Made by a program: the position numbers and the translations under genes. Positions 3,440-24,882 of a DNA stretch of 28,407 nucleotides are shown in pieces. The stretch is taken from the IMG/VR virus record IMGVR_UViG_3300013111_000231, positions 1-28,407 of that record; one strand, 5' to 3'. Every line of letters starts with the position of its first letter. Position 1 is the first letter of the stretch. The DNA is from a virus. The notes below the pieces were generated by a model. The model was given only the letters and a program-made list of their open reading frames with translations. It did not search any database and was not told the origin of the DNA.

Positions 3440-3577
3440 GTAATCACAATTAAATAAAGGGCCGCACTTCCGGCCACGCTTGCCCCGCATTTGCCGCGCA
3501 AGCCCTACAGGAAGACCCGCCCGCCTCTTTGAAGGTCACCTACTTTGTAGCTCGCCTTTTCGGAGGCGGGCTTTTTG
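3440..3577 (+). ncRNA. Candidate structured leader or small RNA
   Basis: The predicted transcript from the promoter at 3404-3433 to the T-run at 3572 is about 135 nt and GC-rich. It can form nested pairs: CTTCC (3468-3472) with GGAAG (3510-3514), enclosing GCTTGC (3478-3483) with GCAAGC (3498-3503), followed by the terminator hairpin. No reading frame of use lies in it. It could be an attenuated leader for capsid expression or a stand-alone phage small RNA. It does not match an RNA family I recognise. Confidence 0.4.
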
Positions 3578-3580
3578 TTT
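3519..3580 (+). terminator. Intrinsic terminator directly before the capsid gene
   Basis: A perfect 9-bp stem, GCCCGCCTC (3519-3527) with GAGGCGGGC (3563-3571), is followed by TTTTTGTTT. The 35-base loop holds a smaller hairpin, CTAC-TTT-GTAG (3540-3550). The T-run ends two bases before the SD of the capsid gene, so read-through is needed for capsid expression from upstream. Confidence 0.8.
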
Positions 3581-3592
3581 CAGGAGCATATT

Positions 3593-5773
3593 ATGCCCGA
3601 TGAAAGCCTTAGAGACCAATTGAACCGGATCGAAGATGCTTGGTATGACGTTCGTCCGGTGTCCGAAGTGATTGCAGCCAGCGATAGCTGGGTTGTTGAC
3701 GTATATGACGACTATTTGATTGTCAATACCGGCTCTGAATACTATCAGGTACCCTATTCCGAGAGCGAAGGGGAAATCGAATTTGCTGATCAATCTGACT
3801 GGCTAAATGTCGAAAAGCAGGTCGAATGGGTTGCCAAATCGGTACAGGCCCAGATCAAGCATGTTGGACGTAATCCGCTGAAAACTCTGTCTGTTGACGA
3901 TGAAAGCATCCGGGTCGCTAATTACATGATCTTGTTTGGCGATGAGAAGAGCAAAGACCTTGACGGCGAGTATTTCACCGCTGAAACAGACATCGAAAGC
4001 GAATATACCAAATCCGGTCGCCTATATGTCGACTGGGAGCACCGATACGATAAGAAAGGCCCCGGTGACGCCATCATGGGCGTCATTGATTGGGCCACCA
4101 AGAAAGCCGATGAGATTGGTATATGGGTGGAGCGAACATTAGACCGTCGTAATGCCTATGTCCAGGCCATTGAGCCGCTGCTCGAAAAGGGCATCATTGG
4201 TACATCGTCCGAATCGATCCCAGGGAAAACAGAAGTTCTAAAAAACGGCCAGATTACTAAATGGCCTTTGCGCCGTGACAGTCTCACAGTCATGCCGGCA
4301 GAGCCGCGCATGATGACTGACAATGTATTGGCGGCGCTCAAATCAATCAATTCGTTAGAAGAGGCACAGCCTGAAGAGCCACAGGTAGAAACGCCAGAGG
4401 ATGCTATGGACGCATCGGCAGCTACAAAGCACGACGGCGAGCCTAATCAAGTTATATCCAAAATTACTCCACAGGAGAAATCCACCATGAAAACTAAAGA
4501 AGAAGTTTACAAAAACTTTGCCAAAGTCATGGGTATAGACGTCGGGGATCTCACCGATGAACAAAAGACACTGGCTTTGCATGGTCACGACTTTGAAGAG
4601 CCGGCAACTGAAGATAATTCAGAGCTGGAAAAGCAAGTCAAGACTTTGAGCGGCCAGGTTGAAGAGCTTTTGCGCTATGCCCAAGAACAGCCCGGTATCA
4701 AGTCCGCCGGCTATATTTCCGAAGATGGCGGCGATGACAAGAAAGTCCAGAAGTCATTTGGTGACTTCCTGGTCGCCGTGGCTCGCAAAGACGAGCGACG
4801 CCTGAAGAACATCTATGGCAGCTACAAGACTGCCAAGGCGGACATGGGCGAAGGCTCAGGTGCTGTCGGCGGCTATCTCGTACCGGAAGAGTATGAGACT
4901 TCATTGCTACAGATGGCCAATGAGTCTTCACGACTGCGCGAAATGGTCACAGTTGTGCCCGTGACCTCGCCTCGTGGTAACTGGCCTTCCCTTGATCAGT
5001 TTACCGCTCCCACTGCTGGCGTCGGTGATACCGCCTTTGCTGGCGGCTTGACTGCAGCTCGCACGGCGGAAAATGCCGCTCTGACCGAGACCAACCCTGC
5101 TTTCGAGCAGATCAAATGGAACATTGAGAAAGTCGGCGGCTACACTCAGGCCAGTAACGAGCTGATCAACGATAGCCCCATGTCCATTGAGACCATGCTG
5201 TCGGCACTGTTCGCCGTAGCAATCGCTGCCAAGCGCGAGCACTACATTTTCCGTGGTACTGGCGCTGGCGAGCCTCTCGGTATCCTGAATGCAGGGTGCG
5301 CCATTGGCGTATCCCCCGATGCTAACAACGTCTGGGACGAAGGCGATGCGCTAGAGATGATGAGCCGCTTCAAGAGCTACCTGACCCGTGGTTCCTGGTT
5401 CATCCATCCCGGCATCATCCCTGATTTGGGCGAGTTTGAAATGGGCTCCGGCGGAAGCGTGTTCGTCAGCGACCCCAACAACGACCCCGTGATCGGGCAG
5501 CCTTTGTTTGGCAAACCGGTCTATCAGAGCGAGCACTTGCCACAGGATGACAATGCTGGCTGTGTGGTTCTGGCCGACATGAAAGCCTATCTGCTGTTTG
5601 AGAAGCCCGGTCTTGAGATCGCCTTCTCTGAGCACTACGGCTTCATCAATGACCAGGGTACCTGGCGCTTCTACCAGCGGCTGGATGGTCAGCCCTGGTT
5701 GTCCGCTGCCATTACATTGGCCGATCCGAACGGCAGCTTCACCGTTTCCCCGTTCGTGTATTTCAATGACTAA
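3593..5773 (+). CDS. Capsid maturation protease fused to HK97-type major capsid protein
   Basis: One open frame of 726 residues holds two head proteins that are usually separate. The ATG at 3593 is preferred over an upstream in-frame TTG at 3575 because AGGAG (3582-3586) precedes it. Residues about 25-85 resemble the small beta domain at the front of XkdF-like maturation proteins (SWVVDVYDDYLIV...YYQVPY). Residues 100-245 match an S78-type prohead protease, with His150 in YVDWEHRYD and Ser205/206 in GTSSESIPG as likely catalytic residues. From residue 299 the HK97-fold capsid protein follows: a coiled-coil delta-like segment (ELEKQVKTLSGQVEELL), GGYLVPEEY, then the core with ASNELINDS and FRGTGAGEPLGIL. 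A nested start may also make the capsid part alone. Confidence 0.92.
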   Translation: MPDESLRDQLNRIEDAWYDVRPVSEVIAASDSWVVDVYDDYLIVNTGSEYYQVPYSESEGEIEFADQSDWLNVEKQVEWVAKSVQAQIKHVGRNPLKTLSVDDESIRVANYMILFGDEKSKDLDGEYFTAETDIESEYTKSGRLYVDWEHRYDKKGPGDAIMGVIDWATKKADEIGIWVERTLDRRNAYVQAIEPLLEKGIIGTSSESIPGKTEVLKNGQITKWPLRRDSLTVMPAEPRMMTDNVLAALKSINSLEEAQPEEPQVETPEDAMDASAATKHDGEPNQVISKITPQEKSTMKTKEEVYKNFAKVMGIDVGDLTDEQKTLALHGHDFEEPATEDNSELEKQVKTLSGQVEELLRYAQEQPGIKSAGYISEDGGDDKKVQKSFGDFLVAVARKDERRLKNIYGSYKTAKADMGEGSGAVGGYLVPEEYETSLLQMANESSRLREMVTVVPVTSPRGNWPSLDQFTAPTAGVGDTAFAGGLTAARTAENAALTETNPAFEQIKWNIEKVGGYTQASNELINDSPMSIETMLSALFAVAIAAKREHYIFRGTGAGEPLGILNAGCAIGVSPDANNVWDEGDALEMMSRFKSYLTRGSWFIHPGIIPDLGEFEMGSGGSVFVSDPNNDPVIGQPLFGKPVYQSEHLPQDDNAGCVVLADMKAYLLFEKPGLEIAFSEHYGFINDQGTWRFYQRLDGQPWLSAAITLADPNGSFTVSPFVYFND
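4473..4489 (+). promoter_or_regulatory. Internal SD and start for a capsid-only product
   Basis: Inside the fused gene, AGGAG (4473-4477) lies nine bases before an in-frame ATG at 4487. Starting there gives 428 residues (4487-5773), the normal length for an HK97-type capsid protein with its delta domain. The junction upstream is a low-complexity Pro/Glu/Ala linker, as expected where one protein ends and another begins. Confidence 0.65.
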
Positions 5774-5849: not shown

Positions 5850-6290
5850 ATGACTGAAAAACTCCATCAATTACTGGCCGTCGTAGCAACTGTCGATCCT
5901 GATGCCTATTCCACTGGTGCGCAAAATACTGACTGGGTTGATATGACTATCTTCCAGGAAGTTATGTTTGTCGTCCAGGCCGGCGTTATCGCCAGTTCTG
6001 GTACGCTGGATTTTGAAATCCAGGAGGCCAAGAGTTCGACCGGATCAGACGCGCAAACGCTGGACTCCGGCAATCTCAACATTACCCAAATGTCCACCGG
6101 TGACAATGACGAGCAAACAGTTGTCGTTGTTGAAGCCGAGGATTTGACTGCCCTGTTTACCCACGTTCGTGGCGTTATGACCTTGACGACTGCCGGCGGT
6201 GATGCTGCCGTAGTCGCCATTGGTGGCCGGGCACGCTATAACCCTGCCTCTGACAACGATTTAGCAAGCGTTGGTGAGATCAAAGGGTAG
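5850..6290 (+). CDS. Probable head decoration/structural protein
   Basis: A 146-residue protein with strong SD (AAAGGAG) directly after the capsid gene. It is Thr/Ser/Asp-rich and beta-patterned (VMFVVQAGVIASSGTLDFEIQEAK; TALFTHVRGVMTLTTAGG), without Cys or membrane segments. Small beta proteins in this slot of HK97-like phages are commonly capsid decoration or head-stabilising proteins. The family call is from position and composition; I do not see a diagnostic motif. Confidence 0.65.
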   Translation: MTEKLHQLLAVVATVDPDAYSTGAQNTDWVDMTIFQEVMFVVQAGVIASSGTLDFEIQEAKSSTGSDAQTLDSGNLNITQMSTGDNDEQTVVVVEAEDLTALFTHVRGVMTLTTAGGDAAVVAIGGRARYNPASDNDLASVGEIKG

Positions 6291-6299
6291 CGATAAACC

Positions 6300-7445
6300 A
6301 TGACAACCGTAGACCAGGGCGTCCTCGTGGCGCCCTGGTACCCAGGGACTATGATGACAGAAAAACGATCTGTAGCAATCGTCGGGTTTGCGCACACCAG
6401 TATGAGCGAGGTGGATAAGTCGCAGGCTGATGAAATTTGGTCGATCAATTACGCTTGGAGATACGAGCTCCCGCGTATTGATCGCCTTTTTGAAATCCAT
6501 AAATTGGAATGGTTGGCTGTTCCGCAAGGAAAGCGCTCCCAGGAGCATTACGAATGGCTCCATAAGGAGCACCCGTATCCGATTTACACATATAAGCAAT
6601 ATCCTGAGATCCCTTGCAGTGTAGCCTTTCCATTCGATGAGCTTTTCAAGCAGATACTCTGGCCGCAGTGCATCCTTGAAGTTAGGGATAGCGGCGAATA
6701 CATCACCGAAGATAGCGAAGATGCACGCAGTACTATCAGCTATATGGTTATGTTAGCTATCGCCGAACATTTTGACCGCATTGAGCTATACGGCGTCGAG
6801 ATGGGATCTGACACCGAATACGGCCACCAAAAGCCAAATCTGTTTTATCTGCTGGGATACGCTGCCGCTTTAGGTATCGAAATATTCTATCCCGAGGCAT
6901 CGTCACTATTTGCCGCCAATCTATATCACGAATACGGTCAGGCGCTGACTGGTGAGGATGTCAACGAGCATATTGACTTTTATCAGACAAAGTTAGATCA
7001 ATGGCGCGATGCTATTCTATCGCTCAGTGAAGAAATCAAGACCAACAGGGATATGTTTCCTGAGTACGTGAACGCCCAGAGATTGGCATTTGTGTACGGC
7101 GGAGCGCTCAAAATATGTGAGAAGCTGCTGGAAACCATCGATATTGAAGGTATTGTTGGTAGGCAAGACTTAGAAAGTGCCAAAGGCCAATACCGTGCCG
7201 CCCGTGATGCCGAGATGGCACACGCCAACCACTGGAACGGCGTACTATCCGAGAGAACACGCATCAAGATGAGAAGCAAGCTAATTGATAAGGCTCGTGA
7301 GAATGCCACCGTTCACCAGCAAACAGCCTTGATACGGTCAGGACAAATGCAAGCGGTTGAGAATATGATCAAGGCCATCGATACCCCAAACCCTGACCTT
7401 ACTTTACGAAACGAATTTGCGGCGCAAATGCCACAAAAGGAGTAA
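6300..7445 (+). CDS. Rossmann-like conserved phage protein of unknown function
   Basis: The 381-residue frame has a nucleotide-binding-like start, SVAIVGFAHTSMSEV, then DEIWSINYAWRYELPRIDRLFEIH, a central ISYMVMLAIAEHFDRIELYGVEM and a C-terminal helical region after residue 220. Proteins of this layout are recurrent among phage head genes and resemble the Rossmann-like proteins related to the DUF115/MptE-like group, but no reaction is established. The start is uncertain: ATG 6300 has a weak SD (AAAGGG), while ATG 6351/6354 begins right before the conserved strand. An 8-bp hairpin at 6314-6338 lies between the two. A sugar-nucleotide or glycosylation role would be speculation. Confidence 0.7.
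   Translation: MTTVDQGVLVAPWYPGTMMTEKRSVAIVGFAHTSMSEVDKSQADEIWSINYAWRYELPRIDRLFEIHKLEWLAVPQGKRSQEHYEWLHKEHPYPIYTYKQYPEIPCSVAFPFDELFKQILWPQCILEVRDSGEYITEDSEDARSTISYMVMLAIAEHFDRIELYGVEMGSDTEYGHQKPNLFYLLGYAAALGIEIFYPEASSLFAANLYHEYGQALTGEDVNEHIDFYQTKLDQWRDAILSLSEEIKTNRDMFPEYVNAQRLAFVYGGALKICEKLLETIDIEGIVGRQDLESAKGQYRAARDAEMAHANHWNGVLSERTRIKMRSKLIDKARENATVHQQTALIRSGQMQAVENMIKAIDTPNPDLTLRNEFAAQMPQKE
6314..6338 (+). other. Hairpin at the 5' end of the Rossmann-like gene
   Basis: CCAGGGCG (6314-6321) pairs perfectly with CGCCCTGG (6331-6338) around a 9-base loop. It lies between two possible start codons (6300 and 6351/6354) and could be a leader hairpin if the later start is used. Confidence 0.45.
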
Positions 7446-21473: not shown

Positions 21474-21546
21474 GCAGGAGTAGCTCAGCTGGTAGAGCGC
21501 CTGGTTGCCAATCAGATGGTCGCAGGTTCAATTCCTGTCTCCTGCT
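21474..21546 (+). tRNA. tRNA-Gly (GCC)
   Basis: A complete 73-base cloverleaf. The acceptor stem GCAGGAG (21474-21480) pairs fully with CTCCTGC (21539-21545), with discriminator T21546. The D stem is GCTC/GAGC. The anticodon loop TTGCCAA carries GCC at 21507-21509; the anticodon stem has one C-A mismatch and one G-T pair. The T arm is GCAGG-TTCAATT-CCTGT. No CCA is encoded. It reads GGC and GGT codons. Confidence 0.93.
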
Positions 21547-21699: not shown

Positions 21700-21728
21700 T
21701 TGACAAACTATAGACAGCACTATATAAT
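21700..21728 (+). promoter_or_regulatory. Consensus sigma-70 early promoter
   Basis: A perfect TTGACA (21700-21705) and TATAAT (21723-21728) with the ideal 17-base spacer. It drives the early/accessory operon starting at 21760. Three ACTA-type direct repeats (AACTA 21706, CACTA 21718, CACTA 21731) overlap the promoter and may be an operator for the ribbon-helix-helix protein encoded next. Confidence 0.9.
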
Positions 21729-22320: not shown

Positions 22321-22419
22321 ATGGACAAACTGATTGAGTACCTACCGCTTATTATTGTAGTAATCATCGTCTTTGGCTGGAATGTGAAGGCTTTGTATTT
22401 CAGCAATGGCGATAAATGA
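22321..22419 (+). CDS. 32-residue single-pass membrane peptide
   Basis: The frame starts at ATG 22321 with a good SD (AAAGGAG, 22307-22313) and encodes MDKLIEYLPLIIVVIIVFGW followed by a polar tail (NVKALYFSNGDK). Residues 8-20 or so form one hydrophobic helix, probably in the inner membrane. The stop overlaps an ATGA start of the next frame. Small membrane peptides of phages often act in superinfection exclusion or host takeover; which applies here is unknown. Confidence 0.65.
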   Translation: MDKLIEYLPLIIVVIIVFGWNVKALYFSNGDK

Positions 22420-22451
22420 AGTTGAATTCATGCACCAGAGGAGGAATAATT

Positions 22452-22976
22452 ATGAAAGATCTGTTCTATGAAGTCGAAAGAGATTATCAAAAGATGGTAG
22501 CCAGAGCTAAAAGACTAAGAGCACGAGCGAAATTTGTTCTCGGCAATTTGCCAGAGTTACCGGAGGGCATTACTTTGCGCTCGTCTTATGCTCCGGTATA
22601 TGCTCGAGGATGGAAGTCGGATGAATTTAATATAACTGCTTTAGAAAATCCGAAATATGTCATGGTTGAAATCGAGGTCGAGGATGATGCTTTTGTATTA
22701 ACTTCGAAAACCGAAAACCGCGAATTACTTGCTGAAGTTATGGCTATTTTCAAATGTATCTTGTCGGATGCTCAGCCAAGTGCAAAATCTCAAGCTATTC
22801 TGTTTGATGATTATACCTGGGAGCCTGAGACTATTTATTATGGTTTAGGCGAGATGGGCGGCTATAAGGTAGTCATTAAATTATTTGCACCTTGGTCTCC
22901 ACCAGGTTGTAAAATCGAGAAAATCACGAGCAAAAAGAAAGAGTATCAATTAGTTTGCGGGCAGAGTGAACAATGA
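22452..22976 (+). CDS. Unknown early protein
   Basis: A 174-residue protein. ATG 22452 is chosen because the near-perfect SD AGAGGAGG (22437-22444) lies seven bases before it, although an in-frame ATG at 22416 overlaps the previous stop. The N-terminus is a basic coiled coil (FYEVERDYQKMVARAKRLRARAKFV), followed by an alpha/beta region (YVMVEIEVEDDAFVL, YKVVIKLFAPW). I do not recognise a family. Confidence 0.6.
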   Translation: MKDLFYEVERDYQKMVARAKRLRARAKFVLGNLPELPEGITLRSSYAPVYARGWKSDEFNITALENPKYVMVEIEVEDDAFVLTSKTENRELLAEVMAIFKCILSDAQPSAKSQAILFDDYTWEPETIYYGLGEMGGYKVVIKLFAPWSPPGCKIEKITSKKKEYQLVCGQSEQ

Positions 22977-23236
22977 AATATAACCAAGATGCGATAGTTG
23001 AGGGCTTGCTTTCGGCGATGTTCGTATTAGGCGAGATCGACCTTGTCAACACGATCGAAGCTGATTGTCTGGCCGACCAGATGGGCGAGAATGCCCCTGA
23101 CTGGCTGTTGCTGATCGCCGGTGCTAATCTGGAGGATCCCGAAGCGGTAGCCAAAGAGGCCGCTAAGTGGTTCGTGGTTTGGTGGCTGGAAGAGAACGAC
23201 CCCGGACTTTTGAAAGAGGTCAACCATGAAAAATGA
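22973..23236 (+). CDS. Unknown small acidic protein
   Basis: An 87-residue acidic helical protein in an ATGA-coupled series. It includes LLSAMFVLGEIDLVNTIEADCLADQ and a Trp-rich helix near the end (AAKWFVVWWLEENDP). No motif is recognised. It overlaps the prepilin-like gene by 11 bases, so the two are probably co-translated. Confidence 0.55.
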   Translation: MKYNQDAIVEGLLSAMFVLGEIDLVNTIEADCLADQMGENAPDWLLLIAGANLEDPEAVAKEAAKWFVVWWLEENDPGLLKEVNHEK

Positions 23237-23636
23237 GCGCGGACACGGAATGATCGAATACATGGCCGTGCCAATACTGGCACTTTTGGCCTTGTTATTG
23301 GTTTTGTCAGTGATTGGGCCGGTATTAGGCGAGAAAATAACCGATACTATTCAGCATTACAACCTGGATAACTCGCACGCAGTGCAGAAGCACGGTTCGC
23401 AAGCTGTGGCCGTACGACTTGCACATAATAAATGTGGTGCTGACTTCGAGTTCTATCACGAAGATTGGGACCGCACAGCATGTGTGATTGAGTTTGACGA
23501 TGAGAAGGGCAGCCGCTGGGGCGTGCGCATCTTGGATGGTGAGAACGAGCGCACTGCGTTTATCCAGCGAGCCGGTCGCAGCTGGGAAGAGTTTGTCAAG
23601 TACATGCAGCGACGTGGCTATGAGCTGGTAAAATAA
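23226..23636 (+). CDS. Flp-type prepilin-like protein with soluble C-terminal domain
   Basis: The 136-residue protein begins MKNERGHGMIEYMAVPILA and then a hydrophobic helix to residue about 34. This matches a type IVb (Flp) prepilin signal: a short basic leader ending in Gly6, then +1 to +4, Glu11 at +5 and Tyr12 at +6 (G/xxxxEY), followed by the transmembrane helix. The rest (about 45-136) is soluble, with DFEFYHEDWDRTACVIEFDDEKGSRW and a helical end. A host prepilin peptidase would cut after Gly6 if recognised. No pilus assembly genes lie nearby, so it may mimic or block host pili. Confidence 0.65.
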   Translation: MKNERGHGMIEYMAVPILALLALLLVLSVIGPVLGEKITDTIQHYNLDNSHAVQKHGSQAVAVRLAHNKCGADFEFYHEDWDRTACVIEFDDEKGSRWGVRILDGENERTAFIQRAGRSWEEFVKYMQRRGYELVK

Positions 23637-23639
23637 AAA

Positions 23640-23660
23640 CGTCCCCGAAGGGACGCCTTT
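23640..23660 (+). terminator. Short hairpin, possible bidirectional terminator
   Basis: CGTCCC (23640-23645), loop CGAA, and GGGACG (23650-23655) form a tight stem. On the + strand only CCTTTG follows; on the - strand the stem is followed by TTTTTATTTT, a better T-run. It may weakly end + strand transcripts and strongly end antisense ones. Confidence 0.5.
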
Positions 23661-23949: not shown

Positions 23950-24882
23950 ATGAGTAACGCAATAATAATCCGTAATGTTGACGATGTGGCCAGGGTAGCC
24001 AAAGCCATGTCCCAATCAGGATATTTCCAAGATGCCAAAGATGCAGCGCAAGCGGCAGTCAAGATCATGGCCGGACAAGAGATGGCTATCGGCGCTTTTG
24101 CGGCAATGACTGGTATCCACATTATCAAAGGTAAGCCGGTTTTGGGCGCTAATCTGATTGCGTCCAAGATCAAAAATGACCCCCGCTATAACTATAAGAT
24201 CAAAGAATTTACCAGCAAATCTTGTGTTATCGAGTTTTATGAAGATGGTGAGCTGGTTGGAGAATCGTCTTTCTCGATCGACGATGCCAAAGCTGCCGGG
24301 CTGAAAAATGATAACTGGAGCAAATATCCTAAGAATATGCTTTTCGCCCGTGCAATCAGCAACGGTGCCAAATGGTTCACGCCTGGTATTTTTGGCGGCG
24401 CTCCTGTTTATACACCCGATGAATTTGATATCGAAATAGACGAAGAGGGAGATCCCGTTATTGCTATCGAGGCAGAAGCCAGAGACGTCAATGGCAATAA
24501 CGGCGACAGCAGCAACGATGAGACTGACGCTGACCCCGCCTGGATTGAACGCCCCATTGCCCCCGAGAACCTGAAAGCACAACTTGCCGAATGGGCGAAG
24601 ATGTACGTTGATCAGGATTGCCAGGACGCCCATCGTAAAATGCTGGCATCTCATCTGGGAACTACCTTCGACGGCGATGACACCAAGCGCTACGAATGGA
24701 GTAAATACTACCTGGGCGCCGCCAGTACCAAAGAAATTGACGGCGACTTAGTTTTGGCGACGCTGAAAACACTCTTTGAGTGCAGTAACTGGGGCGATAT
24801 TCCCAGCGAAGTCGCCATCGAAGAAGTAAAGAACAGTCACGCCTATGCCCTGAAAAATCAGGGACAACAGGAGCTACTATAA
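23950..24882 (+). CDS. RecT-like single-strand annealing protein
   Basis: A 310-residue protein with a perfect SD (AAAGGAGG). The first 155 residues follow the phage RecT-related pattern: AKAMSQSGYFQDAKDAAQAAVKIMAGQEM, then TGIHIIKGKPVLGANLIASKI, FSIDDAKAAGLKNDNWSKYPKNMLFARAIS and the end of the core near GGAPVYTPDEF. RecT/Bet-type proteins anneal complementary single strands in phage recombination. The C-terminal half is acidic and variable, and the protein ends QQELL, a possible sliding-clamp-binding peptide. The small coiled-coil gene next to it and a nuclease gene further on fit a recombination module. Confidence 0.72.
   Translation: MSNAIIIRNVDDVARVAKAMSQSGYFQDAKDAAQAAVKIMAGQEMAIGAFAAMTGIHIIKGKPVLGANLIASKIKNDPRYNYKIKEFTSKSCVIEFYEDGELVGESSFSIDDAKAAGLKNDNWSKYPKNMLFARAISNGAKWFTPGIFGGAPVYTPDEFDIEIDEEGDPVIAIEAEARDVNGNNGDSSNDETDADPAWIERPIAPENLKAQLAEWAKMYVDQDCQDAHRKMLASHLGTTFDGDDTKRYEWSKYYLGAASTKEIDGDLVLATLKTLFECSNWGDIPSEVAIEEVKNSHAYALKNQGQQELL

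Follow-up and report, generated by a model that had tools for sequence, protein, structure and literature searches.

A predicted membrane-tethered phage protein family and its Flp-type prepilin variant in a virus of likely Anaerolineae hosts

The window analyzed here, the whole 28,407-base stretch of an IMG/VR virus contig (IMGVR_UViG_3300013111_000231) that encodes portal, capsid and tail proteins as well as RecT, harbors a gene (gene B) whose product joins an Flp-type prepilin N-terminus to a C-terminal domain that, judging from sequence, defines an undescribed phage and prophage family. The computations establish this family, the two-gene module that it forms with a small upstream gene (gene A), the transmembrane (TM) anchor, the pairing pattern of the cysteines, the Flp-type motif and the Anaerolineae-like character of the head genes. 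We tentatively favor the view that the phage protein encoded by gene B is made early and tethered to the envelope, with superinfection exclusion as its most plausible role and the Flp-type signal as a variant anchor. The relevant features of the window are:

21700-21728, plus strand: sigma-70 promoter with perfect consensus (TTGACA-17-TATAAT) upstream of the gene cluster; 0.012 such sites expected in the window
22416-22976, plus strand: upstream ORF, overlapping gene A by 4 bases
22973-23236, plus strand: gene A, small partner of 87 aa with the PDWLLLIAGANLED motif, overlapping gene B by 11 bases (profile of upstream neighbors)
23226-23636, plus strand: gene B, 136 aa; an Flp-type prepilin N-terminus, predicted to anchor the protein in the membrane, precedes a C-terminal domain of exported type (ORF list, family profile)
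23226-23243, plus strand: putative class III leader MKNERG, with cleavage by prepilin peptidase predicted after Gly6 (sequence; RGxGhhEY block common to Anaerolineae Flp pilins and a pilin on a viral contig)
23262-23315, plus strand: single TM helix, residues about 13-30 (hydropathy; AlphaFold2 helix 8-48)
23376-23633, plus strand: C-terminal domain HAVxKHG...TAFI...YMxxxGY, residues 51-136 with Cys C70 and C86, helix-helix-four strands-helix (alignment, profile, AlphaFold2)
23640-23655, plus strand: terminator-like hairpin just 3' of gene B, with a weak T tract (fold z-score -2.5)

The coordinates given to gene B by the first-pass annotation were right, and AGAGG precedes its start. The protein begins MKNERGHGMIEYMAVPILALLALLLVLSVIGPVLGEK... 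(also given as MKNERGHGMIEYMAVPILALLALLLVLSVIGPVLGEKITDTIQHYNLDNSHAV...) and ends ...RRGYELVK, its order being MKNERG, the presumed cleavage site, HGMIEY, one hydrophobic helix and then an 86-aa soluble domain. The G/xxxxEY pattern of Flp-type pilins claimed for this ORF is indeed there, with Gly6, four residues, Glu11 at +5, Tyr12 at +6 and the single hydrophobic helix, while the leader described as basic is so but weakly (K2 and R5, with E4). The published PilFind cleavage motif set is [GAS]-[ACFGILMNPQSTVWY]4-[DE] (PMC3244431); G-HGMI-E, having His at +1, lies outside it and is accepted by the rule only if His is allowed, and the other PilFind properties are present in gene B, namely at least 14 uncharged residues after the motif, one TM segment within the first 50 residues and a length of no more than 350 (PMC3244431). 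When the protein was searched by hmmscan against PF04964 (Flp_Fap), the check proposed for its pilin nature, it gave no match, and its own record lists none, whereas true Anaerolineae pilins are hit with E values from 6e-5 to 4e-9, some of them under the curated cut-off.

The prepilin motif of gene B is far beyond chance. A degenerate DNA pattern for RG[HQ]GhhEY, devised after the window had been seen, occurred eight times in 100 Anaerolineae genomes, each time in a pilin-like sequence, and its reversed control never. Among 1019 ORFs from 15 loci, [KRE]GxG[ILMV]2E[YF] was found in two, the window and one locus that had been fetched with that very motif. A profile built from 20 Flp pilins of Anaerolineae gave gene B 17 bits, vs. 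at most 5.8 for its 12 relatives, and none of 2000 shuffles of gene B residues 1-48 reached the window score. When residues 13-48 were shuffled around an intact motif, 31 of 2000 did so, and 616 of 2000 when TM helix and tail were shuffled separately; since TM and tail alone are thus not significant, the case rests on the cleavage block and the adjoining helix. The idea that the anchor shares its origin with Flp pilins over all 48 residues was considered and given up, the shuffle test offering no proof past the motif. Overall, the sequence supports a real type IVb-like prepilin N-terminus, and we infer that a host prepilin peptidase could process the protein.

Such a peptidase, whose presence in the host the first-pass annotation had proposed to verify, is common in the likely host lineage, Peptidase_A24 being found in 28 of 31 Anaerolineae genomes and Flp pilins in 56 of 60; PMC4877987 reports an active Tad-type pilus cluster from this lineage. 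By its head genes the virus likely infects this class of the Chloroflexota: the portal had no match in 50,697 phage records and shares 40% identity with the portal of an Anaerolineae genome, whose head genes are collinear with those of the window (G068:C1, about 3794000-3832000; L076, L077); A and B are absent from this region. The window also contains a 732-aa ORF (3575-5773). Its residues 328-716 form an HK97-type major capsid domain, and the long N-terminal part before them looks like a prohead protease joined to the capsid protein. Among the window genes, no integrase was identified.

Gene B shares with the Flp/Tad type IVb pilins of Anaerolineae (PF04964) the N-terminal RGxGhhEY block at the cleavage site and, in an ungapped similarity, the single TM and GPxxG at equal spacing. 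Unlike them, it lacks a PF04964 match, has His at +1, bears the 86-aa phage-family domain and sits in an early-type phage region with no pilus genes found near; the earlier remark that assembly genes are missing from its surroundings agrees with our scan, in which no pilus assembly family appeared among the window ORFs submitted to Pfam, a part of the total. Flp-type N-termini also occur on some longer proteins of Anaerolineae themselves. On another IMG/VR contig (3300025325_000176, L065) an ordinary Flp pilin gene was observed (3998-4138, plus strand; PF04964 E 4e-9), whose product starts with MRNERGQGLVEY, nearly the same as the gene B protein; such sequences therefore travel on contigs classed as viral.

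The soluble domain had been taken for a new one unlike any pilin. It is not a lone novelty, as it belongs to a phage and prophage family. No library names this family: gene B had no named-family match in Pfam, PHROGs, NCBIfam or PADLOC, and none among defence families. Single-sequence searches gave nothing related among viral contigs or phages, and their one plasmid match was non-significant. The search patterns were derived in part from the window domain aligned with a few made-up variants (alignments A1 and A2), which served pattern design only, while the family evidence consists of natural sequences confirmed by tblastn and of profiles built without the variants. Twelve natural relatives of the domain were obtained, first with a degenerate probe and afterwards with natural members alone (L004, L005, L006, L007, L009, L012, L013, L014, L016, L031, L032, and L033; L013 and L033 among the remotest), occurring in IMG/VR and, in phage-like surroundings, in two Anaerolineae genomes, and scans with natural-member alignments for further ones were saturated. 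A further candidate, L003, was dismissed, RecT being all it has in common with the window. A profile of eight members built without the window retrieved gene B at E 6e-18, the next ORF following at 0.12. Conserved residues of the domain include H51, A52, H56, A60, and T110, with G96, F112, and G131 nearly so in the alignment.

Every member of the family has an N-terminal TM helix, most show an N-in charge bias, and all 13 have an even number of cysteines in the domain (two in 11 members, four in one, six in one), which together argue for an exported, disulfide-bonded, membrane-tethered domain; the domain of gene B, too, is predicted to be exported and disulfide-bonded. The domain profile, the N-terminal TM anchor, the even cysteine number and gene A upstream, by which the family is recognized, are all found in gene B. 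The prepilin motif, on the other hand, is absent from 11 of the 12 relatives, and the conserved function of a domain that sits on anchors without it should be independent of the pilin pathway. The remaining relative, L032 (MSREGSVFTDMLV...), conforms to the strict PilFind rule, which may be due to chance.

AlphaFold2 modeled the whole gene B protein with a pLDDT of 82 and the domain alone with 86 (pTM 0.75), the latter as two helices, four strands and one helix. Neither model had a confident fold match among PDB or viral models, the best Z values being both in the range of unrelated matches: the whole model reached 6.5 with Gse1p of the yeast EGO complex, the domain alone 5.0. By sequence, no solved structure was significantly matched, the lowest E being 0.037. 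WGR, Roadblock-like, PUR, and BECR folds appeared as weak structural matches only and were not adopted.

Gene A is conserved directly upstream of gene B in seven relatives, hence the two form a module. A profile of the seven upstream neighbors, built without the window, ranked gene A first of 356 ORFs (E 5.5e-5, next 0.8), and in the window and six relatives the two genes share 1-23 bases, with a 61-base gap in L031. The ORF at 22416-22976 is probably in the same transcription unit as gene A. The consensus promoter, a possible early promoter of the region, was observed between a gene for tRNA-Gly(gcc) and an Arc-like ORF (window sites 21700-21728 and 21474-21546). The RecT gene lies downstream of gene B, at 23950, and the module is near RecT or other recombination genes in L006 and L014 as well as in the window; expression of gene B is presumed to be early.

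We favor an early protein acting on the envelope, with the pilin-type anchor as a variant, since most members of the family carry a plain helix. The gene B protein, made early, would present a small, disulfide-bonded domain at the outer face of the cytoplasmic membrane of the host, and would work with, or at least be co-translated with, the small and supposedly cytosolic protein A. Most relatives would be tethered by a plain membrane helix at the N-terminus (N-in, C-out); in the window phage the tether would be an Flp-type (type IVb) prepilin signal, which the host prepilin peptidase could process, the product then staying in the membrane among the pilins. The most likely role is to protect the infected cell or lysogen at the envelope, i.e., superinfection exclusion. 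We infer this solely from where the gene lies and from the anchor and topology of its product; the same traces would be left by lysis control, by adhesion or by an envelope enzyme.

The first-pass annotation had instead proposed that the protein poisons pilus assembly. After cleavage behind Gly6 the mature protein would enter the Flp/Tad machine and cap, jam or decorate the filaments, thereby keeping out pilus-dependent phages or altering adhesion. The RGHGMIEY motif with a TM helix at the right distance, the ungapped similarity to Anaerolineae Flp pilins up to GPxxG, the pilins and Peptidase_A24 of the likely hosts, the strict prepilin rule satisfied by the sibling L032 and the Flp-type N-termini on longer Anaerolineae proteins speak for this route, while the motif missing in 11 of 12 relatives, the Flp_Fap match that true Anaerolineae pilins have and gene B has not, the His at +1 and the non-significant similarity of TM and tail speak against it. 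We consider it unlikely, although its probability, lower than that of an envelope protein, is real. Its more specific form, in which the phage fused a host-type Flp prepilin signal to an exported domain of its own, so that prepilin peptidase and Tad machine carry the product into or onto pili and block or decorate them during infection, seems more doubtful still. It is also rather improbable, if less so than either, that the prepilin-like N-terminus is a mere alternative anchor, copied from or converged on the host Flp signal, to which processing and pili are irrelevant: unrelated plain helices hold the domain elsewhere in the family, the published prepilin set does not include the +1 His (PMC3244431) and significance is confined to the motif block, but sequences other than pilins very rarely carry the exact RGxGhhEY block.

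A BECR-class nuclease or another toxin-like enzyme, with A as immunity or partner protein, is a far more remote reading of the C-terminal domain. It is suggested by the two helices followed by a four-stranded sheet, by the conserved His residues and by one CDI toxin chain, which we take to be of BECR type, among the weak structural matches (Z 3.6 over 65 residues). That value is within noise and the chain is not listed for the domain-only model; moreover, the cysteine pairing and the membrane anchor favor an exported domain, and no defence family was matched.

Returning to an envelope protein, the membrane-tethered superinfection exclusion proteins of other phages are small, expressed early or in the lysogen, and TM-anchored with an outward domain. 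Gene B resembles them in size, TM anchor and predicted outward domain, with no sequence match to a named family. To our knowledge, neither a prepilin signal nor a gene B-type domain is present in Tip, Aqs1, or PfsE. These type IV pilus inhibitors serve superinfection exclusion and are, as the gene B protein, small phage proteins; the inner-membrane protein PfsE is aimed at pilus assembly (PMC8764522). The comparison with D3112 and DMS3 drawn in the first-pass annotation is loose, because Tip (D3112) and Aqs1 (DMS3) bind the ATPase PilB, whereas the gene B protein appears exported; PfsE (Pf4) binds PilC (PMC8764522). In the literature, no paper joining the terms phage-encoded, prepilin, and superinfection exclusion was found. 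If true, an envelope role would provide the first molecular handle on the surface action of phages of the Chloroflexota, abundant and poorly studied bacteria, and would name an undescribed two-gene phage module, while the pilin route would represent a new phage use of a host secretion signal together with interference with Tad pili, of which we know no earlier case.

Other genes accompany the A-B module in part of the family. A small multi-TM gene is beside it in L004 (3849-4175), L005 (470-790), L014 (5064-5390), L016 (about 370-690), and L032 (about 6290-6640), and a coiled-type gene (PREWPNGAKEAR...) was also observed beside it in several of these loci; the conserved multi-TM and coiled companions of L004, L005, L016, and L032 are absent from the window. 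In L012 (5264-8234), apparent sugar-nucleotide genes (PseG-like, ATP-grasp and cytidylyltransferase-like by eye) adjoin the B-family gene, which suggests surface modification nearby.
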